In this document: positions 2,752 through 19,769 of the stretch, in pieces | Layout: every line of letters begins with the position of its first letter | Position numbering within the stretch: the stretch's first letter is position 1 | Virus record (IMG/VR): IMGVR_UViG_3300009418_000045 | Coordinates: 1 to 37,183 of that record | Reading direction: 5' to 3' (one strand) | DNA: 37,183 nucleotides | Source of the DNA: a virus | Notes under the pieces: generated by a model | The model's database searches: none | Told to the model about the DNA's origin: nothing | The model's input: only the letters and a program-made list of their open reading frames with translations | Position numbers and translations under genes: made by a program

Positions 2752-3466
2752 GACTAGTGACCTTTCTTTTCCTCTTGAACTTCGACTTATGGTATTTTTC
2801 ACCACGTGCCATCGGCATAATCTCGTGATAGGGAATGCCGTTGATAACGACCGCCGCCGCCAATATAGGTTTTTTCCTTGCATCTTTACCATAGTTCATT
2901 GCTGGGTGACTTATGTCTACGCCACATCCAACGTCCATTCCGAAGATTCGTTGCCTTGGTCCACAACTCCATTTTACACCAGCAACAGAGTGTACGTGCC
3001 CGATTACTGTGGACATTCCAGAACCCTTTGCAGCATTCAGTGCCGGTTGCATGCCAGTGCACCCCGTGCCGTGAAAATAATGCACATCGTCAATTTCAGT
3101 ATCTCTCTTCCACTTCCACTTTGGCGTGTTCCACACTATCTCGTAGCCTGTAATAAACCTAGCAGGGATATTCACCGATGCAGCCAATCTATAAACCCGT
3201 TCATCGTGGTTGCCAATCATCACCTCTGCTTTTGGAAACGCCTTGCACCACTTACGCACACCCTTGTACGCCTTCTCTGCCTCTCTCGTGACACCGTCTG
3301 CGTCTACGTCCTTCTTCCAAAAACTGATGCAATGGAAATCAATAATGTCACCAATAAATACTACATGGTTACAAGACCATGTATCGTATAAATCCTGAAC
3401 AAAGCGCCTATACCCCACATGGGTAGCAGGCTCATGAATGTCGCCTATCACTAGGACTCGGCTCAT
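2741..3466 (-). CDS. Calcineurin-like metallophosphoesterase
   Basis: A 241-aa protein with all the hallmark metal-binding motifs of the calcineurin-like phosphoesterase superfamily: GDIH at 8-11, GDIID at 39-43, GNHD at 85-88, FHG at 131-133 and GHVH at 156-159. It should be an active two-metal hydrolase, but the substrate (nucleotide, nucleic acid or phosphoprotein) cannot be told. The C-terminus is strongly basic (KSKFKRKRKV). A Shine-Dalgarno AGGGG precedes the ATG, 17 nt after the giant gene ends. Its position at the distal end of the late operon, not among replication genes, is notable. Confidence 0.9.
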   Translation of the reverse strand: MSRVLVIGDIHEPATHVGYRRFVQDLYDTWSCNHVVFIGDIIDFHCISFWKKDVDADGVTREAEKAYKGVRKWCKAFPKAEVMIGNHDERVYRLAASVNIPARFITGYEIVWNTPKWKWKRDTEIDDVHYFHGTGCTGMQPALNAAKGSGMSTVIGHVHSVAGVKWSCGPRQRIFGMDVGCGVDISHPAMNYGKDARKKPILAAAVVINGIPYHEIMPMARGEKYHKSKFKRKRKVTSHGR

Positions 3467-3483
3467 GAAAATACCCCTTTACC

Positions 3484-6400
3484 CTAACGCTCCTTGCCAT
3501 GCTTGCGAATTTGCTCCCATGCATAATCCTCTTCTTCTGTTAGGTCACGCTTCTTGCGAAGTCGTCCGACTGCTTTCTTGACATCTTCATACGATGGGTC
3601 AATCAGTGTTTGTGTTCTCCCTACCTGTTTCTGTGGCATGAGTGTCGGATCGCCAACCATCAGTCTGACAGGTTCAGTCAAATCCCAAATGCCTTCCCAC
3701 AACTTCTCTTCTGCGTCCTCTTCTTCACTCTGTGTTGCGTTGTATATCTTCAAAGTAGATCGCGTGGCATCTGCTATTGGGTCTGCCCACAAGTGGGGAA
3801 GCCCTGGCTCGTAGCCCTCTGGTATCGAGAGTAACCAACTAAAGATGATGCCTGGATACCCAAACCTAGACACTATCTCGTCAGCGGCTTGATACATCGC
3901 ACGTCGTTCTGCCGATTGCTTGTTTTCCTCGTTGACAAAGTATTTCATTTGTTCTTCAATCCAATCTTCGTCTTCATCGTCATCGAACCAGGATACAATT
4001 AGTCTTCGGACTGCTTCAAAACTCAATGTCCACCCAGCAGAGACAGCAACCATTGCGGTGAATCCACCAGCAGCTCGTACCTTTTGCCGCTTAGTTCCGT
4101 GTCGCGTTGCTCTATACAGAGTGTTGCCGGTAACCGATGGATCACTTGAGAATGGGAACAGCATTCTGTACGCAGACCCTCGGACGGCATCCTTGGCATC
4201 AAGCACAGTTGCATCAAGTGGTGAGGAAGAGTTCTGAGTTACACGTATAACACGCTCAGTCTCCGTACCTGCCATCTCAATCAATTCTGCCCCTGAATAC
4301 CCTTGTCTCATTAGACGGCTTCTCACGCCAACGTAGGCTGTCGCAACGATAAGATTATCAAGAGCCTGTAGTGCATGGAGATCGTCTGGCAGCTCTCGCA
4401 TCAACTTGAGCATTTCCTTTGTGACCCTAGATGCGTTTGACCAATTGCCCTGTGCCAAGTACTTTGAGGCTCTTGCCAATGTCTTCGCAATCTTCCTCAT
4501 CCTATTGAAGAACGCTGCCTTGTCTGCAATCTTTGTTGGCTTCTGCTCGAACGACTGTAGTTGTCTACGCATCGCCCCTGAGTTTGCCCTTGCCCATAAG
4601 TAACCGTTCTTGTGAGCCTCTTCCAATACAGCATTGAGATCCGTAAGGCTTGCCTGACCAACAAGAATCTCCTCGACCGACATCTCTAACGATAGGTTGG
4701 AAATGCCACCAAAGTAAATGCGACCGTATGTCCTTGGGTTCAGTGACAGGTACGCTCCCGCTACATTGCCAGCGACAATCATTCCAAGCGTCCCGGCAGT
4801 TCTCTCTACCATGCCAGCACCGTGTAGTATTCTTGCCTCTAGGTCTGCACGTACCTCCGCACCCATGTGCTTATTGATTGCGTCATACACATCTCTATGA
4901 TTGATGATGGAGATGGCATCCCTCGCGGGAATAGCCATATGACCCAACTTCGACATCGCATCCGCATTAGACATAAAGTCTTCAACAAACCCACCAAGGA
5001 TAACAGCACCACTCGTTGCGGTTCTCTCCTTCGTGAAGCCAGCATCGTCCAAGAACTTCGCGGTCATCTCGGATATCTGTAGCCTCTCGGCTGGATTGTT
5101 CTTTATTCTCTCTCTGGAAGTAGGCTCGTAACCAGGAACAAAACGTGGCTCGTATCCATGTATCTCATAAAAAGCACCGAATGCCAGTGGTCGCAATACC
5201 GTCTCTCGATGTGCCTTAGCCCTATCAATCAGACCCCTAACGCCTGCTGGTAACTGGTCTATTACATCACTGACTTCCTGTCGAGTGATACCCTTGATTG
5301 GTGTCACTGTTCTACCATCGTGCGTCTGTATTCCTACACCTTCTCTTACTACATTGCCATCAGCATCTACCTCATCGACAATCTTGTCTAGGGTTTCCTC
5401 GTCAAATGCGTACAACTTCATCGCTTGATCCAAGGTGAGTTGCAATTTCTGACCTCCAAAGGTGGCGTTTATCGTCTGTGTTTCAACTTCAATCTGTGTC
5501 ACGCCAGCCACATCCATGAGTTGGTCAAGGTTGTCAAAGCCGGCTTCTTTCGCTAGGTTGTTTAGCACATCGAACGTGCCACGTATCTGTGACAAGTGTG
5601 CTGCTTCGCCATCAGTCAGTGCATGATGAAGCATATCAGCCACAACAGCCGCATCTTCACGATTGCCAGCCATGACATCTGCAATGATGGACATCGTGTT
5701 TTTAGACAAGGCAAATCTGAGAGGCTTGGAAGGTCTATCTACCTGTGGACCACGTGCGTGTTCAGGTCGAGGTGGCTTCTGCTGAAGTGAATTGATTATC
5801 TTGGCAGCGACTGACGCTAACCGTTCAGCACGTTCGCCACGGGCTAGTTTCCAATCCTCACGTTCCTGCCTGACCAAGGCTATCGCTTCATTCAAACGAC
5901 TTTCAATCTCCGCTGCCTTGGAAATCAAATCCACTACAGATAGTGAGCCTTGCTTGAACATACGCTGTGTACCAGTTTGGTACGCTATGCCACCGAGCAA
6001 GTCAATCAATCTTTGTAATTCTTCACGAGCCTCGCTACCCATCTTGCGTTTCTTCAAACGCTTGATGACTTTCTTCATTCGCCTGGTGGCTACTCGGTAC
6101 TCTTCCTCGGCAGATACCCTTACCACCTTGGCGGCAAGTAACTCAACACGCCTATTCGTGTTTGCACGTGCGAGGCGAATAGCCAACTTGCCCCGTAATC
6201 GCTGTGGCAATTGACCCACCAAAGCAATTGCCGTCTCTCGGATTTTGTCTTTGTTCTCTACTCCAAGTTTCAATCTCTCTAGGCGACGTTCCAGCATCTC
6301 CCGCATCGCCTTCACTCGCATCGTTGTTTGTATTCTCGCTCTCTCTCGCTCGTCTCGAAGTGCCTGCTTCTTCTCCCGGTCACTGAGTTGTCGCTGGACA

Positions 6401-9400
6401 CGAGCACCTGCACTTACACCAGCACGATGACCACGTCTGAATGACGGACGATCACCTATCAGTTCACCTAACCGTTCCTCTGCCTCTCGTCCAAGGATGC
6501 CAACGATAGGTGAATTGACTACCGTGTTGATAGTCTTGGGCAACTTCTTGCGTGAGAATAGGACGGTGTCCTCCATCTCATCTAGAAGAGCGTGACGCTC
6601 TGTCATGTCTTGGTCTAGTGCGAATCTTTCAGAACCGACCGCACTCTTGTATACCTTTACTGTAACTCCCTGTGCCTCAAGATCTCCAACAACATTCTCG
6701 CTGGCATTGGATGGCACGAGCGCTGCTACAACTCCACCCTTACCAAATGGGATTACATCCTGTGGCTTCGATTCCAACCACCGTTGCGGTAGTGCAGTAA
6801 TAGATTTCAATATCTGAGGAAGCATGTTGTCAATGACGGATGTCGCGTCAATATCTGGCTCGGCTATGCCAACAATTGAATCTCTGGTATTCTCATCCAC
6901 ATACCCGACCATTTTTACCATTGCTCCAGAATCGTCGAGGATATCACTCCAAGTTTGGTTTATGCCATCGGGAGTATTGTTTAGTATCCAATCAACGGTA
7001 TGTCGCAAAAGATATTCACCAACATGGTTTCGTATTGCTTTGTTGAAATCAGCCGTTGGATCAGCATCTTTTCCTTCCAAATAATGCTCTAGCATGGTGT
7101 TCATCCACGCAGCATCATCATCGTACCTCAGTCGTATTTCCTCTGACTCCATACGCTGCTTCTCTTCGACAACTCCACGTATTTTTTCTGTGAAGATAAC
7201 CTCGTCTGTCAACAGTGCTGCCAATTGTGAGATATGAAATTGGTTCACTCCATCGTGTGACAAGTCAAATACGACTTCCCCTCCAGACAAGAATTCTGCT
7301 CCTCTAATTGAACCTGCTTGCTCTTGTTCTGCCCTCATTGCGTTAAGCATGTTCTCTGCGGGTGAAAGCAAAGCATCGTGCTCACCATGCACAAGGTCAT
7401 CTGCCGTCCTCTGCGTATAGGCATCTCCAGTAAACACACCGTGTTGCTTGATGACGTTTGGATCGAACACTAGGTATATCTCACCGAAGTTATTGTCTGG
7501 TACTGTAATTCTATCCTTTGCCGTGACACCAATTGAAGGCATCGGGAAACCGCCACCTTCAATAGCCATCTGCAACGCACCTTGGGTTACCATAGAGATA
7601 GCGACCATTCGAGGTGTACCATCTCTACGCTTACGTGACTCCAACGCTATCGTGTCTTCACGGAACACATCAAGTGGAGTAGAACCTTCAGCACCCTCTT
7701 GAGTAATTGGGAAGAACTCTTCTTTTACTTTGTCTCTTAGTGCCTGTTCAAAAGCCACTGCGGAACTTCCAGCTGCTCTACCCTCTGCCCACTCATCCTT
7801 CATGCGGAATGTATCCACAGAGCGTACCTTGTTTCCTGTAGGATTGAGATAGAAAATCTTGCCCTCATACGATCCAGCAAACTGCTGTTTGCGAATAGCA
7901 AATGCCACAGGTTCGTCTTTGTGCATAGCAGTCAGAGGGTCAGGATATGACAGTATGAATAGACGTGTTGACTGTGGGCTTTTCGTCATAAGCCATTTAC
8001 TCAGCAACCTAGACTTGCCACTCTTGAATTGCTTGGCAACCCCATGCTCCAGAGATGTCTCCGTAACCGTTACTTTAGAACCGATAGTCTCTTCTATCAG
8101 GTTGTACAACTCTGGAGAAATTCCAAGGTGTTGCATATCTGTCACACCCGATTCCATGTATTTCTTTTGAGACATACTCTGCACTACAGGTACTTGTAGT
8201 TCGAGGTCTTCATACCCCGGCATGACTGATGTTTCGGGCCTGACTTCTCCACTCTTGTCTACAGGAACACCACCAAATCGTAGTATATCTATCATTTGAC
8301 CATGAGCTAGATCGCCCATGTGTACTCGTGGTACGGATGGTGTAGCGTAGAGAGGTCCGGGGAAGTTAGAGGTAAGAACACGTCGCTTTTCCTCCTGACC
8401 CTTGACACGTGTAACAACTGAGTCGTAGTATTCAGACTCTTCTTCCATCATCACAGATGGGACAGGACCAGTTTTTTCAGAAACATTATTGTAAAGTTTT
8501 GGGTCTAGAGTTTCCAGTACAGGCAACTTCCATACAAACTGTAAAGTCTGAGTCCACTGTTGCCACATTTCATCAGGTGTCTGAGTAAACGCATCGTGTA
8601 CTTTCGCATCACTTAGTGCGTAATAAACATCTCTACCTACGGCTTCCCTAAGTTCGTCGTAGTAACGATTACTCTTGGCGAAGTCAATTACTTTCTGTGC
8701 GAGTTGGGCACGTAACTCAATGACATCTGCGTCTTGTGCAACTATCGCTGGGTCTAGGTTGTTCTGCGCTGCCAAGATGTGAATGATCTGCTGACCAGTA
8801 TCTGTCTCTAAGAATGTGGGGTTTGTTGCATGTTCTAAATCTGCTCCAATTTCGTCAAAGAGTTCATCGGGCATATAGTCCATTGCCTCAGATAAAGCGG
8901 TTCGTTCGCCTATTGAGTATTCAAGTGCAAGGTGATAGAGAAGCCGGCTCAAATTGAGTATCGAATCTGATGGGGTCATGTTCTTGTCACCACCGGGTAA
9001 CACTTCCACTAGACTGCTAGTCCAACGATCTGCCAACGAACTGTCCGTTGGTTCACTTGGCATCCCATACTTCAATAGGTTGTAGTTTTCTAGACCCTTA
9101 CGCTCTTTGTACTCCTCGGTTTCAAAGTAGATTTCACTTGAATTGTGGAATGCCATAGCCACATCCGCTAATTTCGGAACTACTACCTCATCCCAATAAC
9201 CCCGCACAAAGAGTGGGCTGTTCCTCTGAAGCATCGCAACCATAGGGAAGTTTCTTGTAACACTCGTGATTATCTCTATTGCCCCGCCAGCAGGTAATGC
9301 TGTTGGGTTTCTATCGCCACTTTTTACCAACGCTTTCAACTCTTCGCCAATCGCAGTTGCATCTTGGTTCAGTTTGTCTATCGTCTGACCTACCTGTCGT

Positions 9401-12400
9401 CGTGACTCAAGGGCGTTCGCGTTGAACATTGGCAAGCCCTGTTGAACATGATCACGTATCTTGTCTGTTATCGGTAACGCTGCCTGTCTGTCCCATCTAT
9501 CTACACGATTGCGACCCTCTTCTACATACTTCGTTTTATTGATTTCATCTTGGATCTCCTCACGTGTCCCATGCCTCAAGGATTGCTGTAAGCCAATCAA
9601 ATCATATGCAGAGGCTAGATCTTCTCCTGATAGTACCTCACCAGATTGCTTGTTGTAGAAACGTGCAGTGTGTGGAAGTGGTGCTGCCTCGGCTTCTTCA
9701 CGAGTATCCCAACCCTTGCCGACGCTGATTGTATTTCTAACTCTGAAATCAGTCGATAGATAAGAAGATGGTTTGAATATAAAGTTCTTCGCTGATCTGT
9801 ACCCCTTCAAACTATCTGCGATTGGAGTGGACTCTGCGCCTCTTCCACTTGATAATTCAATCCTACGCACCAACGTATCTACCATATCCTCAAACACATC
9901 CAATTCATGGAACGCGGTTTCTCTTGTCAGCGTCTTGCCCTCTCTTGCTAAACGCTGTTCGTATGCTGCCAGTCCAGGTGTACTCCTATCTAGTTTGTTC
10001 CATGCATCGTCAAAGAGTGTTGCAAATGGCCATACTTCATGCTCTCCTGTGTCTGGGTCAATTGGAGTTTTTGACTCTCCTGTCACTTCATCAACTCCCC
10101 TAAGGAAACTAATAATTTCGTGGGCTTTTTTCAGTTGCTCTTCGGTGTACTGTGGTAGTGACTCATTCCCCCATTGAACATTCCCCTGAGATAGTTGTTT
10201 GTGTGCGTTTACTGAGAAACTAGAATACGAGTTGAACAGCATGCCCATGTCCATGAGTTCCACTATCGTCTTTGAAAACTCTCCTATATGAAAGTGATGC
10301 ATAGATGGGAAGTTCCGTGTACCCCTCGCGTTGAGGAACAACTTGTCCAAAGCAAGTTCAAACGCCTCTTGCTTCGTCGCTATCCTTCCTTCTACCGGCT
10401 CTGCTTTGATTTCAAACTCGAAGCCCATACCCTTTGATGGTAGTTGTAGTTTGCCGTTGGCATCTTCCACCAAGACCGATGGGTCTAACTTCTTCGCGTA
10501 CTTGAGAAGCATTGAGTATATGTTGTCGTACAGCCTCGCCCCCTCACCAATATGCTCCACCTTTTCCACTAGTTCGGAAGATGGTATTACCAGTGCAGTG
10601 TGCCTATCGGCTACCGCTTTAGCCAGCATTCGCTTGACTCCCAAGCCTACCCATTCCTTGGATTGCTTGCCCCTTGGGGTGGAAACAAATGGTCCAGGTG
10701 GAACTGCTTCAGCATCATCGTATCTGTCGATAGATTCGGCAAGTGCATCTTCCCATATTTCTCTAACTGTGGGATCTGTGACGAAACCAGTTCTTTCAAT
10801 TGCGGTATCTGCACCATACTCGACAATTGTATTTCTCAGGAAGTCACTCCTGTTCTCCATCCATGTTGCTCGTGCCTCGTCAGTACCCCTCATCTTGATG
10901 TACATCTCGCCAGCAAGGGCTTTCAGTGGTGCATATTCATAGTTCTCGGCATGTTCTTCAGCATCCCACAGTGGATGTTCACGCAAGAGTTTCCAATCCC
11001 CGTTGAACAACAATGGGAATTGATCCTCGCCAACTGACTGTAGTTGTTTCAATACATCCTCGTCATTCATGGCGAGTTCGTAAAAGTGCTCTATGGTTTC
11101 AGCAGTTTCCTGTTCGTAATCCATGTACCCAGTGTCTTCTTCTATTGGTGTGGGTGGGTTTGGGTCACCCGGCAACTGTGGAAGTGCTGAAACAGGTAGT
11201 TCCAATCTGCCTGTATCATATGTCCCATCGTCCACAGATATCTTTGACTCTACACCCCATGCTCCAGGTGTCAGGTTTCGTCTCGTAGTAGACCTGTGTA
11301 AAGGCATACCTTCCGAAAAGGCTGAAGTAAATCGAAAATGAACATCCGCCTCTGGTCCGTAGTAAGAGAGAACTTTCTCAGTTCCCACACCAGCTGTGAT
11401 ACGTTGCGCATGGGGTTGCTGATAGCCCAAATACAAATCGGCTTGTTCAGCATGGGTTTGTGGCGTTTCCCGCAGTGCCTCATCTACCGAACCCATCACT
11501 CGCTCTACAGTTACTGTGGCTTCTCCACCGATACCGTATCTTCCTACGTTCCTTGCCCAGTCACCCTGCAATTCCCATGCATAGAGAAATGTCTTGCCCG
11601 GTTCATCTGCTTCATTGTCTGGCATGATGAATAAACGCTGATGCATAATCTCATCCGCTGCCCCGAAGTGTCCTCCCCTGAACACCCTTGGGTCTCCTGT
11701 AAGAACTTTTTGAAGATACTCTTGGTAAGTCGTGTCTTCGTCGAAGCTGACAATCCTGCCTTGATCATCGGTGAACGTCTCCCCTGGTTCTTCTCCTGGT
11801 TCGGGAGGTTCTAGATCTGCTACCGCTTTAGCCCACTCGTCTTCAGACATGACATCCAATTCATCCTGTGCTCTGTCCCACGAGATGATGATTTGCTCAT
11901 GACCTACCGCAAGTTCGTTGACGAAGTCGGGTACAGCTTGCCATTTGTCACCACTACGGAATCTCGCCTCTTCATTTGTCAGTATTTTCTCAGACAATTT
12001 CACTGGACGAACTGCTTCAATAGCCTCGTCTATGTCAAAGGACTCTTCACCCTTTGTTTCCAAGAACTCTTCTAGTCCAGACCAGAATTGCTCCTGCTCA
12101 TTGACCCCGTTCTTCTCAAGCATCTTGCGTAATTGCTTGGCAGTCATCTTCCGTTGCTCGGACATCTGCATGGCTTCACGTATCTTGGGGAACACGCTAC
12201 CCATCAGTTGAGTCTCTCGTATCGCTTCAACTTCTTTCTTCGTCTTGCGTGACTCAAGTGCACCACTTGTCGCCTTTGTGTAAAGTTCGTACATAGATTG
12301 GTTGTCATACTCAACAACAACAACCTCAAAAGGCTTGGGTTTCCACCCCTCTTTTATTTTGCCTGGTCCATAAAACCCAGTAATCCAATCATTTGGAACG

Positions 12401-15400
12401 AGATAAACAACATCCCCCTTCTTGGGCATATACTGTCGTTCAGGGATGGTTATTGGTTTATCACCCACTGACACGGGCAGGACATTTACTCCAATCCCCG
12501 GCTTCCAACCTTCCTTCATGACGGTGGTTGCTAACTCTAGCCCCTTTCCAGTTTTCCTTGACCTAATGTCAATATGCTGACTGTAACCACTACGGAATTT
12601 TGCTTCTGTCAGCCTTCGTGACTCAAGTGCACCACCAGCATCAAGCCATTTGCCGACTGTCTGCTTGCCAATCTTCTTCTTGGTTAGTACCTCTTCAGTA
12701 CGAACTGCTAATTTTTGTTGTTGCTCTGCCCTGGTGTTGGCTAGGGTTTCGGCAAAATGGTGTAGTTGCCACGCCTGACTTTTTGCGATAGCCACTGCGA
12801 GTCGTTCTCGCTTAGGTGCTGAAAGCCGCCTAATCTTGCCAGCCTTTGTGCGGGGCGTTCGGAGGAGTTGTTCGCGTTCTCTTTTTGTTGGGGCGACTTC
12901 GTCAACAATTTGTCTGTCTTGTTTGTTGAGTCCTGTGTACCACTTGCTTGTTTTCTTGGCATCGTTTTTTACCTCTTTGTTTCTGATGTCCTTGGATGCT
13001 TGTTCTATTGTACCACTAACACCTGCTTTGGCATCTATTATCTTTATATCGGTATCTTGTATCAGTGGACTTAGCCCTCTAGACTGCAATTCTCGCCTTA
13101 TTGATTCCTCACCAGCATTTATGTCTGAACCCTCTACGGGTACGATTGCAAGGTAAGTGCCGTTGGCAACAGGCATGGAATGAAGAACCAATCCATATCT
13201 TCCTGCTGCTATAGCGAGTGCTGATATGTGTGAGAACTCCAACTCCTGTGTCGGGAAGAACATTCCAATGGCAGGCTCACCCTGCCCTGCTGGAACTTCC
13301 TCAACCGCTATGGCATCAGACAAACCCAACATCGAAGCGGAGTACGTTAGGACTTCCTGCATCTTCTCTGACGGTACTCCACCCAAGTAGATGCTCATGG
13401 TTGGAACTAGAACACCGCCCTCTGATGTAAACATTCCGTAGATGAGATCGCCACGCTGTGCAGACCCACCGTACTGGAATGCCCCCATTGATTTTCCTGC
13501 GAACATGTCTGCAACTGAAGTAGTTGCGTTGAACTTCTTGCCAGCGACCATTGCCACACTCTTGTGGTATGGGTAGTGGAACTGGACAAACTTGCCTGTG
13601 CCAGCCTTCACCTGTGCCACTCCAAACATTTCCCGTAGTTCGTTTGAAAAAGTCGGCATTTCTGTTTTGCTTGTTATTGCACTGACATAATCATATGTTG
13701 CTGTACGTAGTTTGCTATATGCAGCAGTAATGTGCTTACGTTGTGTCTCATCCAAATCACTTGCCAACGCCTCACCTAAAGATGCAGTAACTTCGGTTGC
13801 ACCACCAAGTGGTGTGGGTGGCATCAGTCTTGGCTCACCACGAACTGTTGCCTTGGTCAACCCTGCCAACCCCATCTCAGGAGTTAGTTCATCTAGGTTC
13901 ACATACAGCGTTCCATCTGCGTGTTCCTTGACAGGGATGCCGGCTTCTTGCCATTCCTCGAATATCCGAACTAGTTCATCTGAATATGTTCCTGTGTTGT
14001 CTTGACGGTTTGACCACATGACTGCCTGGACTTGCCACGGTGTCCAAGGTGTGTTGATTACATCAGCATCAGCCTCTGTCAATCCACGTTTGTCTACAGT
14101 CTTCCCGTTCAACATCGTTGCTAGTTCGACATGAAGTCTAGATATCATTTCATATACCAATGGGTTGGTGAAGTTCTCACCCTTTATTCCATAGATATTT
14201 CCCATGATGATGTCGTTTGTGGATAGTGGTGTCTCACTGACCATACCCATTGCATACAGGAATGTATTGGCAAAAGACCCTGTCTTGTACCGACCACCCT
14301 CTGCCAACTTGCCTGTCAATGCCTTCTGGACTCCGACCATCTCTTTTGTGGACACAGCGGTAGGTGACGGCACTCCCAGTTTCTGATCCAAGAATATCGA
14401 CACTGCCTTTCTGATATTGTCTGGCACTGGAGTTCGAGGTGATGTGGCAGATACTACATCTGCGAACTGTCTCGCATCAGCCTCTGACATTCCAACGAAT
14501 CTGTTCAGGAAGTCCTCTCCAAAAGTCTCATACCAGAACCGAATGCTCGATGGTAGATTTATGGAGTCATTGAAGAATGTCGCATCCAACGATAGGGAAT
14601 CTACTTTCGCAAAGCCCAGTGCTCTTTCGTACCTTGCAGCTCCCATCGCCTTCTCTGTGTTCTTGATGGCGGTGTCTATGTCGCTCTGTTCAACCTTGGC
14701 ATATGGGATATTGACTGAAGCCTCTCTCGAAGCCTCGGAGTAACTCTTGCCAGCCGAAGTCTTCGCAACCTCACCAGGCTTGTACGGCAACTCCTTGCCA
14801 CCCATGAGTTCCTCTTCGGTAAACTGTGCCTGTATATCTTCTAGTGTGACAGTTGTCAGTGGCTTGCCATACCGTGAATCCCTCTGCCCCTTGATGTCTT
14901 CTTTCGGCTCTTCCTTCTTGCCTCGACCCCGTTTCTTGGGCAACTTCTTGCTTGTCTTCTTATCCTTCTCGCCATCACGTTTACGAGCCTCCAGAGCCCC
15001 TGTAGTCCCTTCTTCCTCTTTAGCCTCAGTAGCCCCATCTTTGCCCAAAGAACGCTCTAGGGCGGAGAGGAGTTTCCCTGTAGACACAGACCGAATTGAT
15101 TCTCCGTGCAACAACTCTCTAACAAAACTCGCGCTGCCTGGTCTAACTGTATATGTCCCAGAACCACCCTCTTCCACCGTACGACCCTCAGCCCGCGCCA
15201 AAGATGTTTGATGCGCTGTCTTCAACAGCGTGTCGTACAACCGCACAGCAGCCTTGGCATTGCGACCCATTAGACCCAATCTTGCGAGGACTCGCAATGG
15301 CTTGTTTGTCGTAGCACCAGCCTCGACACCCTTCTCTATGGAAACCGCCATGCCTTCTAACTCTGCATATGCTTGCATCTCTGCTAAATCTGACTCTGTC

Positions 15401-18024
15401 GCTACAACCTCGTTACCCTCTACGTCTGTGTATCCCGTAAACGTATCAACTGTACCGCCGTCTGTAATGTGCTGTGCAAACGCAACAACGAGATTGTCGT
15501 TGAATGAACCCTCGACACGCATTGCGTACTCGGCAGCACTCCACAGTGCACCTGCATCTCCAACTATTTCTTTCAACTCTTCGTGCAACTCTGGGTTTAC
15601 GTACTGGATGTAGTGCAGGGATTCGTGCAAGCCCCGTGCAATTACATAGGTTGGGTTCATGTCTACCTGTGTTTTCTTTCCACCCTTGCCCTCTCGTGTT
15701 ACAGTAGCCCTATCTTCTAGGTAGATAACACCCGGTGTTTTTGGATCATAAAAAGCGTCTGCCTGTGAGTCGCTCTTGTCAAACCAAACCACCTCGAAGC
15801 CCATACTCTCAAATGTTGTTTGCACTTTTGTCTGCCCAGTAGACTTCTTGCCCCCAGACTTCTTTCGGCCTTTATTCTTTAATGCCTCATCAACTGTATA
15901 AGTATGCCCTACTAGGCCACCTTCTTCCACAACACGAGTGCCAACCACCAGATCCTTCGCAAGAGCCACTTGCAGTGATAGTGTGAGCGCCTTCTCTCTA
16001 GCACCAGCAGCCTTGGCTGCCATTCGTGCAGCACCCTTTTGATCCCCATTGCTTAAAGCCTTTTCGGCTTCCACAAGGAGCGCCTCGGCATACGCAGCCT
16101 CAACCTCCAACTGGCGATTCCATTTTGCTATTTCCTCTACCCGTTCACTTTCTGGTAAGGCTGCAATACGCTCTGCAACTTCTGGTGCTAACTCTTCTAG
16201 TTTTTTGATTGGATCGTAGTTTGCACTGTTCCAAACATCTCTTGCCGCTATCCTTGCTTCAAGCCGGTCACGCATGACCTTCTCGTTCATAACACCAACG
16301 CCCATCATGGCAGGACCAGAGAATCCACCAAGGATAACCCCACTCCAAAATGCCCCTAAGAAATCCGCCTCCCTGTCAGGGTCTAACTCTTGCATGGCAG
16401 TTGTTTGACCATACTCGGCAACAACCTCTGACACGCCTTCCATCGCTAAGTCACCAGCAATTAAAGATGCGTACTTTGCCGAGTTCTTTAACACACCCCT
16501 TGCAATTTCAGGGGCTGTTTTTTGTATAGCCTGACGGCGGAACACTTGACGCATAGACTCCTTAACAGTCTCTTTCATCGTTGTTCCAGGGCCTACCTTG
16601 AAGAACGATTTGCCTATAAACTTGCCAATGCCGAAACCCAACAGGCTTGTTAATCCCTCACTACCTGCCTCCCATGCTCCTGACTGCATGACTATGCGAT
16701 CACGCACCTCATCCGACACTTTGAATTTTGTGTAATCTCCGTACCTCTGGCGTATTATGTTTGTTTGTAATTCAATGAGGTCTATCTCTGCATCAGCACC
16801 AGAACCTCCAAAGAAGTACCCTGCCACCGCACCACTTCCCAACGCTGTACCAGCAATCGCCCACCCAGGAGGTCCGGCAGCAACTGCAATCGTGGTTGCA
16901 ACAGCACCCGCTGCTATCATTGGGGACGAGCCGCCTAACATCTCTCCTTGTTTTTCTAGCCAGGTCTGATCGTCTGGTCTTTCGGCCGCCATCATTCCCG
17001 ATACAAATCCACTCTGCTCGGCTGCCGCAATTTGAATATCTCGAAGGGCTTCTAAACCCTGCTCTCTTAGTACCTCTTCACTCCCCTCGTCATCCAAGCC
17101 CATAAACTGAGCCTTCAAACCCTGCATGGTCTGTATACCACCCCTGTTGAAAGAACTCCAGAACCCTCGGTCGTTCTTCAAGTCCTCTTCTGCCCACTCC
17201 TTGCCTTCCTGAAATGAGCGAACACGTGATTGGAATACGATATCGCCAGGAATGTAGGTGTCAGATGACCAGTCTTCCAATGATTTCGTCTCGTCAAGGG
17301 GGTCGAATTGACGGTCTTCTTGGGGCACGTTGCGTCTTTGCAACCTCTTTGCCAACTCTCCTTTTGCACCCTCTGCACCTTCAAAGTCTTCTGGTCTACC
17401 TCCATTAAAAGGGGCATCCCACTCGTCTCTTGTCAACCCTGTCACCGAACCTGTTTCTGAGTCTATCTCCTGTGGCTCTATTGCCTCATCCGATACCTTG
17501 ACAGAAAACTCTTTATTGCCAAATTTGACGATTTCGTAGCCTCGTTTATTTTCGTCTTTGACCATCTCGTCATATGAATCGTGTCCTGGTGCTTTGACGA
17601 TCAAGCCTTCCAATGGTCCAGCGAAGATTCTTGAGCCCCAATGGCCAGACCCCTCGTCCTTCATAGAATAGCCAGTAAGTTCCATGACATCAGCCGCAGC
17701 GCCGTAGTCGTAGTCGCTAGTCTGTGGCTTGTATGTCTCTTGTTTAGGGCCTCCGAAAGTTGTCAAATCCTGTACCGACAAACTTCCAGTAAATGAGCCA
17801 GGTAACGGTGCACCTGCCATACCCCTCTCGGTTATGTCCTGAGCCTCTAAACCACGAGCCTCTTGAATAGCAAGGCGAGTTTGTTCTACACGAGCAGCCT
17901 CTGCCTCTTGAAGCAGTGCGTCTCTTCGCTGTTCCTCTGCAACTTGAGCAAGTTTTCGCTCTTCTATTCGTCTTTTGACGTGTTCGTAACGAGGGTCTAC
18001 ATTTGTACCGTATTGCATAGGCAT
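3484..18024 (-). CDS. Giant polyvalent virion protein (4846 aa)
   Basis: One uninterrupted frame that fits the phage polyvalent (DarB-like) proteins described by Iyer, Burroughs and Aravind: very large, multi-domain, packaged and injected with DNA. Regions by residue: helical N-terminus; Gly/Ala-rich membrane-like segments near 370-420, 455-480 and 560-590; HExxH metallopeptidase-like motif (HESLH, 800-804); a helical domain around SATSPRTPVPDN near 1195, resembling a domain common in phage giants; a small MTAKQLRKMLEKNGV...WSGLEEFL module near 1960-1990; a GLGVKRMLAKA polyvalent domain from about 2455 that closes with IRDHVQQGLPMF before 2871; a GGFPMPSIGV...FGEIYLVFDP domain from about 3490; a basic helical stretch 3860-4010; and a C-terminal domain with a FPFSSDP motif near 4628 and hydrophobic helices. 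Boundary tags ALEARK (1010), ALESRR (1799), ALESRK (1922), ALESRR (2871), ALESRK (3460) and LFSRKK (3822) recur. The start lies 2 nt after the upstream stop. Confidence 0.9.
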   Translation of the reverse strand: MPMQYGTNVDPRYEHVKRRIEERKLAQVAEEQRRDALLQEAEAARVEQTRLAIQEARGLEAQDITERGMAGAPLPGSFTGSLSVQDLTTFGGPKQETYKPQTSDYDYGAAADVMELTGYSMKDEGSGHWGSRIFAGPLEGLIVKAPGHDSYDEMVKDENKRGYEIVKFGNKEFSVKVSDEAIEPQEIDSETGSVTGLTRDEWDAPFNGGRPEDFEGAEGAKGELAKRLQRRNVPQEDRQFDPLDETKSLEDWSSDTYIPGDIVFQSRVRSFQEGKEWAEEDLKNDRGFWSSFNRGGIQTMQGLKAQFMGLDDEGSEEVLREQGLEALRDIQIAAAEQSGFVSGMMAAERPDDQTWLEKQGEMLGGSSPMIAAGAVATTIAVAAGPPGWAIAGTALGSGAVAGYFFGGSGADAEIDLIELQTNIIRQRYGDYTKFKVSDEVRDRIVMQSGAWEAGSEGLTSLLGFGIGKFIGKSFFKVGPGTTMKETVKESMRQVFRRQAIQKTAPEIARGVLKNSAKYASLIAGDLAMEGVSEVVAEYGQTTAMQELDPDREADFLGAFWSGVILGGFSGPAMMGVGVMNEKVMRDRLEARIAARDVWNSANYDPIKKLEELAPEVAERIAALPESERVEEIAKWNRQLEVEAAYAEALLVEAEKALSNGDQKGAARMAAKAAGAREKALTLSLQVALAKDLVVGTRVVEEGGLVGHTYTVDEALKNKGRKKSGGKKSTGQTKVQTTFESMGFEVVWFDKSDSQADAFYDPKTPGVIYLEDRATVTREGKGGKKTQVDMNPTYVIARGLHESLHYIQYVNPELHEELKEIVGDAGALWSAAEYAMRVEGSFNDNLVVAFAQHITDGGTVDTFTGYTDVEGNEVVATESDLAEMQAYAELEGMAVSIEKGVEAGATTNKPLRVLARLGLMGRNAKAAVRLYDTLLKTAHQTSLARAEGRTVEEGGSGTYTVRPGSASFVRELLHGESIRSVSTGKLLSALERSLGKDGATEAKEEEGTTGALEARKRDGEKDKKTSKKLPKKRGRGKKEEPKEDIKGQRDSRYGKPLTTVTLEDIQAQFTEEELMGGKELPYKPGEVAKTSAGKSYSEASREASVNIPYAKVEQSDIDTAIKNTEKAMGAARYERALGFAKVDSLSLDATFFNDSINLPSSIRFWYETFGEDFLNRFVGMSEADARQFADVVSATSPRTPVPDNIRKAVSIFLDQKLGVPSPTAVSTKEMVGVQKALTGKLAEGGRYKTGSFANTFLYAMGMVSETPLSTNDIIMGNIYGIKGENFTNPLVYEMISRLHVELATMLNGKTVDKRGLTEADADVINTPWTPWQVQAVMWSNRQDNTGTYSDELVRIFEEWQEAGIPVKEHADGTLYVNLDELTPEMGLAGLTKATVRGEPRLMPPTPLGGATEVTASLGEALASDLDETQRKHITAAYSKLRTATYDYVSAITSKTEMPTFSNELREMFGVAQVKAGTGKFVQFHYPYHKSVAMVAGKKFNATTSVADMFAGKSMGAFQYGGSAQRGDLIYGMFTSEGGVLVPTMSIYLGGVPSEKMQEVLTYSASMLGLSDAIAVEEVPAGQGEPAIGMFFPTQELEFSHISALAIAAGRYGLVLHSMPVANGTYLAIVPVEGSDINAGEESIRRELQSRGLSPLIQDTDIKIIDAKAGVSGTIEQASKDIRNKEVKNDAKKTSKWYTGLNKQDRQIVDEVAPTKREREQLLRTPRTKAGKIRRLSAPKRERLAVAIAKSQAWQLHHFAETLANTRAEQQQKLAVRTEEVLTKKKIGKQTVGKWLDAGGALESRRLTEAKFRSGYSQHIDIRSRKTGKGLELATTVMKEGWKPGIGVNVLPVSVGDKPITIPERQYMPKKGDVVYLVPNDWITGFYGPGKIKEGWKPKPFEVVVVEYDNQSMYELYTKATSGALESRKTKKEVEAIRETQLMGSVFPKIREAMQMSEQRKMTAKQLRKMLEKNGVNEQEQFWSGLEEFLETKGEESFDIDEAIEAVRPVKLSEKILTNEEARFRSGDKWQAVPDFVNELAVGHEQIIISWDRAQDELDVMSEDEWAKAVADLEPPEPGEEPGETFTDDQGRIVSFDEDTTYQEYLQKVLTGDPRVFRGGHFGAADEIMHQRLFIMPDNEADEPGKTFLYAWELQGDWARNVGRYGIGGEATVTVERVMGSVDEALRETPQTHAEQADLYLGYQQPHAQRITAGVGTEKVLSYYGPEADVHFRFTSAFSEGMPLHRSTTRRNLTPGAWGVESKISVDDGTYDTGRLELPVSALPQLPGDPNPPTPIEEDTGYMDYEQETAETIEHFYELAMNDEDVLKQLQSVGEDQFPLLFNGDWKLLREHPLWDAEEHAENYEYAPLKALAGEMYIKMRGTDEARATWMENRSDFLRNTIVEYGADTAIERTGFVTDPTVREIWEDALAESIDRYDDAEAVPPGPFVSTPRGKQSKEWVGLGVKRMLAKAVADRHTALVIPSSELVEKVEHIGEGARLYDNIYSMLLKYAKKLDPSVLVEDANGKLQLPSKGMGFEFEIKAEPVEGRIATKQEAFELALDKLFLNARGTRNFPSMHHFHIGEFSKTIVELMDMGMLFNSYSSFSVNAHKQLSQGNVQWGNESLPQYTEEQLKKAHEIISFLRGVDEVTGESKTPIDPDTGEHEVWPFATLFDDAWNKLDRSTPGLAAYEQRLAREGKTLTRETAFHELDVFEDMVDTLVRRIELSSGRGAESTPIADSLKGYRSAKNFIFKPSSYLSTDFRVRNTISVGKGWDTREEAEAAPLPHTARFYNKQSGEVLSGEDLASAYDLIGLQQSLRHGTREEIQDEINKTKYVEEGRNRVDRWDRQAALPITDKIRDHVQQGLPMFNANALESRRQVGQTIDKLNQDATAIGEELKALVKSGDRNPTALPAGGAIEIITSVTRNFPMVAMLQRNSPLFVRGYWDEVVVPKLADVAMAFHNSSEIYFETEEYKERKGLENYNLLKYGMPSEPTDSSLADRWTSSLVEVLPGGDKNMTPSDSILNLSRLLYHLALEYSIGERTALSEAMDYMPDELFDEIGADLEHATNPTFLETDTGQQIIHILAAQNNLDPAIVAQDADVIELRAQLAQKVIDFAKSNRYYDELREAVGRDVYYALSDAKVHDAFTQTPDEMWQQWTQTLQFVWKLPVLETLDPKLYNNVSEKTGPVPSVMMEEESEYYDSVVTRVKGQEEKRRVLTSNFPGPLYATPSVPRVHMGDLAHGQMIDILRFGGVPVDKSGEVRPETSVMPGYEDLELQVPVVQSMSQKKYMESGVTDMQHLGISPELYNLIEETIGSKVTVTETSLEHGVAKQFKSGKSRLLSKWLMTKSPQSTRLFILSYPDPLTAMHKDEPVAFAIRKQQFAGSYEGKIFYLNPTGNKVRSVDTFRMKDEWAEGRAAGSSAVAFEQALRDKVKEEFFPITQEGAEGSTPLDVFREDTIALESRKRRDGTPRMVAISMVTQGALQMAIEGGGFPMPSIGVTAKDRITVPDNNFGEIYLVFDPNVIKQHGVFTGDAYTQRTADDLVHGEHDALLSPAENMLNAMRAEQEQAGSIRGAEFLSGGEVVFDLSHDGVNQFHISQLAALLTDEVIFTEKIRGVVEEKQRMESEEIRLRYDDDAAWMNTMLEHYLEGKDADPTADFNKAIRNHVGEYLLRHTVDWILNNTPDGINQTWSDILDDSGAMVKMVGYVDENTRDSIVGIAEPDIDATSVIDNMLPQILKSITALPQRWLESKPQDVIPFGKGGVVAALVPSNASENVVGDLEAQGVTVKVYKSAVGSERFALDQDMTERHALLDEMEDTVLFSRKKLPKTINTVVNSPIVGILGREAEERLGELIGDRPSFRRGHRAGVSAGARVQRQLSDREKKQALRDERERARIQTTMRVKAMREMLERRLERLKLGVENKDKIRETAIALVGQLPQRLRGKLAIRLARANTNRRVELLAAKVVRVSAEEEYRVATRRMKKVIKRLKKRKMGSEAREELQRLIDLLGGIAYQTGTQRMFKQGSLSVVDLISKAAEIESRLNEAIALVRQEREDWKLARGERAERLASVAAKIINSLQQKPPRPEHARGPQVDRPSKPLRFALSKNTMSIIADVMAGNREDAAVVADMLHHALTDGEAAHLSQIRGTFDVLNNLAKEAGFDNLDQLMDVAGVTQIEVETQTINATFGGQKLQLTLDQAMKLYAFDEETLDKIVDEVDADGNVVREGVGIQTHDGRTVTPIKGITRQEVSDVIDQLPAGVRGLIDRAKAHRETVLRPLAFGAFYEIHGYEPRFVPGYEPTSRERIKNNPAERLQISEMTAKFLDDAGFTKERTATSGAVILGGFVEDFMSNADAMSKLGHMAIPARDAISIINHRDVYDAINKHMGAEVRADLEARILHGAGMVERTAGTLGMIVAGNVAGAYLSLNPRTYGRIYFGGISNLSLEMSVEEILVGQASLTDLNAVLEEAHKNGYLWARANSGAMRRQLQSFEQKPTKIADKAAFFNRMRKIAKTLARASKYLAQGNWSNASRVTKEMLKLMRELPDDLHALQALDNLIVATAYVGVRSRLMRQGYSGAELIEMAGTETERVIRVTQNSSSPLDATVLDAKDAVRGSAYRMLFPFSSDPSVTGNTLYRATRHGTKRQKVRAAGGFTAMVAVSAGWTLSFEAVRRLIVSWFDDDEDEDWIEEQMKYFVNEENKQSAERRAMYQAADEIVSRFGYPGIIFSWLLSIPEGYEPGLPHLWADPIADATRSTLKIYNATQSEEEDAEEKLWEGIWDLTEPVRLMVGDPTLMPQKQVGRTQTLIDPSYEDVKKAVGRLRKKRDLTEEEDYAWEQIRKHGKER

Positions 18025-18026
18025 AT

Positions 18027-19769
18027 TTATTTATCTTCGTCTTTTTTGTCTGCTTCGATTTTGGCCCTTGCTTTCTCAAACATCTCCGGCATCGCATTAT
18101 CTGCCAATACTTTAATCACCGCAAGGTAAAATTCTTTTTCGTCACCAGGTTCTAACCCATCCGCTATTGCAAGCATACTTTCCAACTTAGACAGTAGCAT
18201 CTTCTCATTTTCGATCTGTAATTCCTGTATCAATTTGTCAGCTTCCAAGCGGTCGGGCGACATATTCTCGTCTATCAATTTCATCTGTTCTTTAATCTTC
18301 ATCCTTTCCAGTTCGTCTACTCTTGCTTGATCTGTTGCTTTAACCTTTGCCGCTGCCAATGATTCAGCAGTTCTATCTAATCGTAAATCAAGGGGATCGC
18401 CAAAAGGAGCAGATCCACTACTTGGATCAAACTTAAATCCCGATGTTGTTGGGGCTGGCTGTGGCGTTAGTGGTTGCAACTGAGTACTACCGGGTGGTGG
18501 AGTAAATGCCTGTTGTGTTGGTGATGCTTGTCCAGGAGCCCACGGTACGCCCCCTGGAAGACCCTGTTGCGCAGCCACTTGATACTGCGTTCCTTGAGAA
18601 CTCAATGCAGGGTTTGCCTGTTGGTTTGCCATAAGGACTGCGGGGTTATTAAAAACCTGTGAATATGCTTTCCTTATTGCTACTTCATCTTCCATGTTCA
18701 GCATACCTGTATTCGGATCTATAAAAGAACCTTGCCATCCTAGTTGACGTGACAACCATTCCAAATGCATAACCAGGTTCTCTCTCTCTGATTCCCACGC
18801 ATCGACATCTTGTGGGTTGTTTACTGTGTATCTGTGTTGACCAGTAGCCGTGGGCACTCCTATTGAAAGCATCTCCATCCATGTTCGGTACATATCCACC
18901 CTCCTAGCAGGATTTGTGTATGCCTGACCGGGCGATAGTGACATATCCATGCCAGCCCACGGTTTGAACTGTGTGCCCTTCTTAAAGGAACTCACAGTCG
19001 TTTCAAGACTTCCTAGCGCCTCTCTTAACTGTGGGTCGTTTGAATTTACTTTAAGCCGATTTTCTAATTCAAGATATTGACCGCCAAAGTGCCTCTCAAG
19101 CCCTTGAGCAAACTGCTGTCCCCTATGTGTAGACTGTTCTAACATCGCATCGTTTACAATTTGGAATTTTTTGGCTGCCGCAGCGTGTGCGTCTTTTTCC
19201 TCTAGATATCGCAAATCATACATCTCTGCAAGTGTGCCAATTGGGTCTTTGCTGTACATATCTTTGAACACGGCAGAAAGCATTGGGTTACTGCCATCAT
19301 CGAGCATTCCTAGCCCACTAGTAAATGCACCCTGGTTTTCCTCTATTGACTGTTGTAGTTGTTCTTGTTCCTCTTGGTACTGCACCATTTTTGTACGGTT
19401 CAGGCTTCTCGCCTCTTTGATTGCCATCCACTGCGAGACAGTCAAGTTGTGATATTGTGGGTTACCAAAGTCATCAATGTAGGATATCTTTGGGTCTCCA
19501 TTTGGATGAGCACCTAGCCACATGCCTTCCAGTGCAGCAGGGTCACCTGTTTTGATAGCAGCAATCGTTTCAGCCGCAGTTCTTGGATTGGAACGCATGA
19601 CATCTACACGACCTGCGAGTACTGGATCTACTGTCCATGACTTAGGTACAATCGCAGTCTCTTTACTAGGTTGAGGAGACTCAGCACCCTCGTCTACCAC
19701 CTCTTCAGTTTCATCCACGTCGTTACCCTGAACCCCGTTTGAGATATTGTTCATTTGGTTGTTAATCAT
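18027..19769 (-). CDS. Putative internal virion protein (580 aa)
   Basis: No family recognised. The N-terminus is acidic, followed by a helical body with a Gln/Glu coiled-coil-like stretch (QYQEEQEQLQQSIEEN). A Pro/Gln-rich linker around residues 385-450 is followed by a second helical segment rich in Lys and Glu. The composition fits an internal (ejection) protein or an assembly partner of the giant protein encoded immediately downstream, with 2 nt between stop and start. A GGAG about 10 nt upstream supports the ATG at 19769; a second ATG five codons in is possible. The role is inferred from position only. Confidence 0.7.
   Translation of the reverse strand: MINNQMNNISNGVQGNDVDETEEVVDEGAESPQPSKETAIVPKSWTVDPVLAGRVDVMRSNPRTAAETIAAIKTGDPAALEGMWLGAHPNGDPKISYIDDFGNPQYHNLTVSQWMAIKEARSLNRTKMVQYQEEQEQLQQSIEENQGAFTSGLGMLDDGSNPMLSAVFKDMYSKDPIGTLAEMYDLRYLEEKDAHAAAAKKFQIVNDAMLEQSTHRGQQFAQGLERHFGGQYLELENRLKVNSNDPQLREALGSLETTVSSFKKGTQFKPWAGMDMSLSPGQAYTNPARRVDMYRTWMEMLSIGVPTATGQHRYTVNNPQDVDAWESERENLVMHLEWLSRQLGWQGSFIDPNTGMLNMEDEVAIRKAYSQVFNNPAVLMANQQANPALSSQGTQYQVAAQQGLPGGVPWAPGQASPTQQAFTPPPGSTQLQPLTPQPAPTTSGFKFDPSSGSAPFGDPLDLRLDRTAESLAAAKVKATDQARVDELERMKIKEQMKLIDENMSPDRLEADKLIQELQIENEKMLLSKLESMLAIADGLEPGDEKEFYLAVIKVLADNAMPEMFEKARAKIEADKKDEDK

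Follow-up and report, generated by a model that had tools for sequence, protein, structure and literature searches.

The question raised by this locus is why a single, very large phage protein repeats nearly the same short peptide along its chain, and what such a peptide may be for. The window, that is, the whole stretch of DNA that was analysed, is an IMG/VR viral record of 37,183 bases, and the giant protein encoded in it is devoid of cysteine, as seen from its composition. It is a large, multidomain protein with domains of the phage polyvalent type: it has 4846 aa, a PBECR5 region and a domain, referred to here as domain A, that is common to giants with ART-PolyVal and LPD38 (Table 1). From the lack of cysteine and the position after the tail genes, we infer that the protein is packaged and delivered with the DNA. 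A Pfam search of the giant gave no peptidase match. Neither megablast nor tblastn found a match for it among isolate phages; among viral contigs, the first half of the protein matched solely a contig of 99.9% identity, and nothing was found for the second half. When the window was compared with the near-identical contig L005, six of the ten differences fell within 117 bp (18546-18662), in the ORF 18027-19769.

Table 1. Features of the giant protein gene in the window. Residues refer to the giant protein.
Feature	Position	Strand	Residues	Basis or remark
Giant polyvalent protein, 4846 aa	3484..18024	(-)		ORF and composition
HESLH zincin motif	15613..15627	(-)	800-804	Sequence
Tag 1, ALEARK	14980..14997	(-)	1010-1015	After the zincin-motif region
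21-bp repeat in the linker after tag 1	14934..14954	(-)
DUF7178-like region	14014..14535	(-)	1164-1337	E=3.5e-4, below the Pfam cut-off
19-bp perfect direct repeat, copy 1, over tag 2	12617..12635	(-)
Tag 2, ALESRR	12613..12630	(-)	1799-1804
Small module between tags 2 and 3	12262..12612	(-)		117 aa
19-bp perfect direct repeat, copy 2, over tag 3	12248..12266	(-)		369 bp from copy 1
Tag 3, ALESRK	12244..12261	(-)	1922-1927	26 aa before the start of the domain A match
Domain A, divergent	9424..12183	(-)	1948-2867	Four collinear HMM segments with inserted sequence between them
Tag 4, ALESRR	9397..9414	(-)	2871-2876	4 aa past the end of domain A
Tag 5, ALESRK	7630..7647	(-)	3460-3465	8 aa before the PBECR5 match
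PBECR5 nuclease-like region	7411..7608	(-)	3473-3538	Partial model, E=3.2e-10, above the cut-off
Tag 6, VLFSRK	6547..6564	(-)	3821-3826	FSR form
21-bp repeat at tag 6	6534..6554	(-)		20/21 bp (95%) identical to 14934-14954

All six tag sites of the original prediction were recovered at the residues it had named (1010, 1799, 1922, 2871 and 3460, and 3821/3822 for (V)LFSRKK). ALESR occurs four times in the giant against 0.013 expected from composition, and no 5-mer exceeded three copies in 2000 shuffles and 1000 first-order Markov sequences; the pattern [AILVMF][LFY].SR[KR] is found five times against 0.11 expected. None of the other virion-type ORFs of the window contains a tag-like hexamer.

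Domain A was detected in the window with an HMM built from other giants, at E=9.7e-15 for the whole sequence. The domain is conserved, with EEIQSDW in its core, and is widespread among these giants; the window copy ends in GLPMF at residue 2867, so that tag 4, beginning at residue 2871, does come right after this motif as had been claimed. The predicted structure of the window's own copy is poor (pLDDT 58.7), and the fold predicted for domain A of another giant (L016:10034-11647) is confident, with a mean pLDDT of 85. In the latter model the tags lie in low-confidence ends outside the fold, with pLDDT below about 60; the 15 aa following tags are richer in polar residues. The L016 domain gave no Pfam match, a comparison of domain A with solved structures gave none either (best E 0.086), and in BFVD, at E<=0.001, other phage proteins were the only matches apart from one weak, unnamed entry. 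In Pelagibacter phage HTVC028P (L256, MW273921.1; 12582-15446) domain A stands alone as a 954-aa protein, gp34, which adjoins separate genes for internal proteins; all four proteins checked are free of cysteine.

The positions of the tags were compared with module borders, taken as the ends of local alignments between giants. The average tag copy has 19.9 C-terminal and 17.7 N-terminal alignment ends in its vicinity, whereas a random position has 2.9 and 2.7. A border is touched by 26 of 31 tag copies, compared with 15.3 at random (P<5e-4), a count from which most copies beside the two anchor domains were omitted, with a few domain A ends slipping through the filter. Together with the tags flanking domain A, these figures bear out the placement of tags at module ends, both in the window and in homologues.

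The original prediction had also stated that LFSR-like motifs end similar domains in other phage giants. A first scan with the pattern GQPMFSR led to giants poor in cysteine, with FSR found after various modules, so this statement is confirmed. A search independent of the tag was then based on a domain A alignment, with scan peptides that exclude the tag, and gave a first set of 97 non-redundant long ORFs. FSR was found there 61 times against 31, an enrichment of only two-fold, as many giants have a different tag in its place. When each protein was searched for peptides that recur in it, these private versions emerged: FAPR six times in L125, DHDQ (DHDQSTHG-like) five times in L051, AGD[MI]LK four times in L033, [RL]YS[ND]R four times in L079 and APL[SA]AL three times in L061, and, in further giants, YSLR (four copies), FAGE (four) and [FY]SVD (five); some giants gave no significant recurring peptide in this search. 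FSR is thus one of many versions of the tag, and many giants own a version. The suggested universal linker has to be given up as stated: the linker is private to a lineage. In L051, an ORF beside the tagged giant (L051:2158-5043), which overlaps it in another frame, holds two more copies of DHDQSTHG and is either a separate protein or the product of a frameshift. Phage ct7L0027 (L257, L259; MW202675.1) has its polyvalent modules distributed over adjacent ORFs that bear GGxV-like peptides, one of which (HARGGVAK) lies directly at a C-terminus; seven copies occur in a small ORF nearby, a modest excess.

Within about 25 residues of its end, the ART-PolyVal domain (PF18760) is followed by FAPR in L125, AGDMLK in L033, DHDQSTHG in L051 and YS[ND]R in L079, and the residues past the end of domain A likewise vary by giant. 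In a comparison of the three residues after the aromatic over the nine giants that possess both ends, the tags following domain A and ART scored a BLOSUM value of 6.0 within a giant and -0.99 between giants, which was reached in none of 50,000 permutations. Within giants, a match is also seen between the stretch that precedes domain A and the one at its end (P=5e-4, n=13; P=0.0013 in a cruder version of the comparison over 28 giants), and the terminal 4-mers recur elsewhere in the same giant 18 times against 2.85 and 13 times against 1.78 expected. A second set of 69 non-redundant giants, found separately, held just two usable pairs of domain A and ART ends, and recurrence was therefore tested instead: the four residues at the ART end recur elsewhere in the protein in 15 cases against 2.87 expected (P=4e-7), and those at the end of domain A in 1 against 0.86, a test without power at n=7. 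AGD[MI]LK, DHDQSTHG and APL[SA]AL were found before modules as well. Since the peptides match within a giant and differ between giants, recur from ART ends and lie at borders, the tag, as judged by sequence comparison, belongs to the protein and not to the domain. These results show a tag that is repeated within its giant, is placed at module borders, differs from giant to giant and matches after unrelated domains of one giant.

From these results, an explanation of the tags may be proposed, tentatively and at somewhat less than an even chance: they are lineage-private junction peptides at module ends, probably read by one factor of the phage, which would most likely be a protease. The giant, a cysteine-free polyvalent protein, is probably packaged and ejected, with the tags in flexible sequence outside the folds. 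A peptide that is repeated unchanged at several seams of one giant, and is replaced by another in the next lineage, would be read by one factor, private to that phage. Of the candidate readers, a protease is the likeliest, either the zincin domain that most of these giants carry or a different protease of the phage. It would divide the chain into its working parts within the virion or once ejected, much as viral polyproteins are processed. Of 149 giants, 123 contain HExxH or HExxxH, against 14.6 expected; cysteine makes up 0.04% of the residues of giants compared with 1.1% in other ORFs of the same loci, and 81 of the 149 have none at all. By analogy with viral polyproteins, cutting by a protease of the phage itself would be the mechanism that fits best. 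Against it, tags lie near the C-terminus in L024, in L109 (ORF running off the contig) and in ct7L0027 (modules on separate ORFs), where nothing would be left to release, and HExxH is missing from the tagged ORFs L097 and L061, both of which are complete. Owing to these C-terminal tags, the tagged ORFs without the motif and the split-ORF phages, two other readings, the tag as a seam for recombination and the tag as a handle that is bound, stay in play.

The stronger of these, which we regard as rather unlikely, takes the tag as a short homology for the in-frame insertion, loss or swap of modules among related phages; the peptide would be merely a tolerated linker, and copies would be alike because each new module brings one. 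Tag codons are indeed shared above baseline. In the window, GAGTCACG is invariant across the four ALESR copies and is found nowhere else, and codon identity of the tags is 17/30 against 8.3 expected (P=0.004), so that the codons differ between copies less than had been stated. A perfect 19-bp repeat at tags 2 and 3 encloses the 117-aa module, and an exact repeat of at least 19 bp arose in only 3 of 1000 synonymous shuffles. Over 20 giants, codon sharing of tags is 1.42 times expectation and that of other repeated peptides 1.04-1.09 times, where 1.42 is a ratio without formal test and pairs within one giant are not independent. This pooled excess implies that part of the homogeneity of the tags is due to DNA copying and not to selection. 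A 26-nt repeat in the window (11946-11971 and 12582-12607, 85% identical), coding EARFRSG and EAKFRSG, is possibly the trace of an older tag.

Gains of modules at tags can be seen in individual genomes. In one sister family, PQFQVxExQEAL is present once in L028, L041, L043, L045, L054 and L082, some of which are near-identical contigs, whereas L042 has two copies with a 124-aa module between them, the 42-bp copies being identical at 31 of 42 positions. Relative to L240, an insert of 155 aa in L196 is flanked by RYSLRD on one side and KFSLRD on the other. In a systematic comparison of 17 insertions, however, the repeat at the two borders exceeded the 95% control level in none, and the overall shift (P=0.02) was not convincing, so that the borders are not clearly repeat-like and module gain at tags rests on these individual cases, which do agree with tags being linkers at which modules are gained. 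A further difficulty for the recombination reading comes from L125, L079 and L209, in which codon identity is at expectation (25 against 23.9 for the six identical FAPR of L125) and the peptide is nevertheless the same or nearly so. Such identity of the peptide over codons at expectation points, as far as sequence can tell, to selection on the peptide, which recombination would need in addition. The dismissal of recent DNA duplication in the original prediction thus holds only in part: the above-baseline codons, the 19-bp repeat and the module gained between two tag copies in L042 speak for duplication, and the saturated codons under identical peptides elsewhere against. It is shown in part that tag copies spread at the DNA level, with or between modules, and that elsewhere the peptide is kept past codon saturation.

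Slightly less probable still is the reading of the tag as a handle, bound and not cut by a putative phage-specific partner, such as a scaffold, portal, ejection machinery or chaperone, which would load or thread the giant module by module. It would agree with a tag that is private to the phage and kept as a peptide, with tags near C-termini and on separate ORFs, including the two in the neighbouring ORF of L051, and with a class of proteins nearly free of cysteine, like the injected N4-type virion RNA polymerase (PMC3915230). A weakness is that, in the window and in most other tagged phages, no other ORF of the locus carries the tag.

It is very improbable that the motif is no tag but the conserved, homologous end of certain domain families: domain A often ends in GxPxF and ART in NPDIRF, yet beyond the same domain the residues differ between giants and, within one giant, agree with those at its other seams, three of the tags also precede modules, and as a full explanation it is refuted by the above permutation comparison. 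A site for a host protease cutting at dibasic residues is an equally faint prospect: ALESR[RK] and FSRK do contain adjacent basic residues, but FSVD, FAGE, APLSAL and DHDQSTHG of other giants are not dibasic. The site of an AXE-type prohead protease (ALE|SR) was rejected: FSR-type and most other tags do not fit it, and no such protease was recognised by eye among the virion genes of the window.

Returning to tags as junction peptides read by a phage factor, we may extend this explanation, with a touch more reserve, to the giants as a class: they may be modular polyproteins with a lineage-private junction code and one co-evolving reader, in which new modules receive the local code. If so, tag and reader would decide which modules a phage accepts, and their co-evolution would explain the uptake of new modules without functional loss. 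The recurring private peptide would also provide a rule for parsing giant polyvalent proteins, most parts of which are without annotation, into modules. With sites now named, the processing proposed in 2017 becomes directly testable.

In viral polyproteins, all sites of one virus follow one protease consensus, lie at domain borders and differ between viruses. The tags show the same arrangement, with a consensus that recurs at domain borders and is common within a phage and not between phages; cleavage at the tags of the giants, however, is putative. With the polyvalent proteins that phages and conjugative elements encode (Iyer et al. 2017), the window giant shares its large size, its multidomain make-up, the zincin motif and PBECR5, and relatives carry ART-PolyVal, LPD38 and MuF_C. 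A zincin metallopeptidase domain is common in polyvalent proteins though not obligatory, and their processing by embedded zincins was predicted in the relevant passages of PMC5512222. The words 'FSR', 'linker' and 'boundary' are not found in its text, and its passages on these proteins contain neither junction tags nor their privacy. The same source, in the passage concerned, contrasts the N4 virion RNA polymerase with a protein that undergoes cleavage before it is packaged; polymerases of this type are also very large and cysteine-free (PMC3915230), but their T7-type RNA polymerase domain was not found in the window giant by Pfam. DdrB and DarA of phage P1 are, according to the passages on them in PMC5512222 and PMC12810830, precedents for processed and packaged defence-related virion proteins, though DarA is cut near its N-terminus by the prohead protease and those passages mention no repeated junction peptide.
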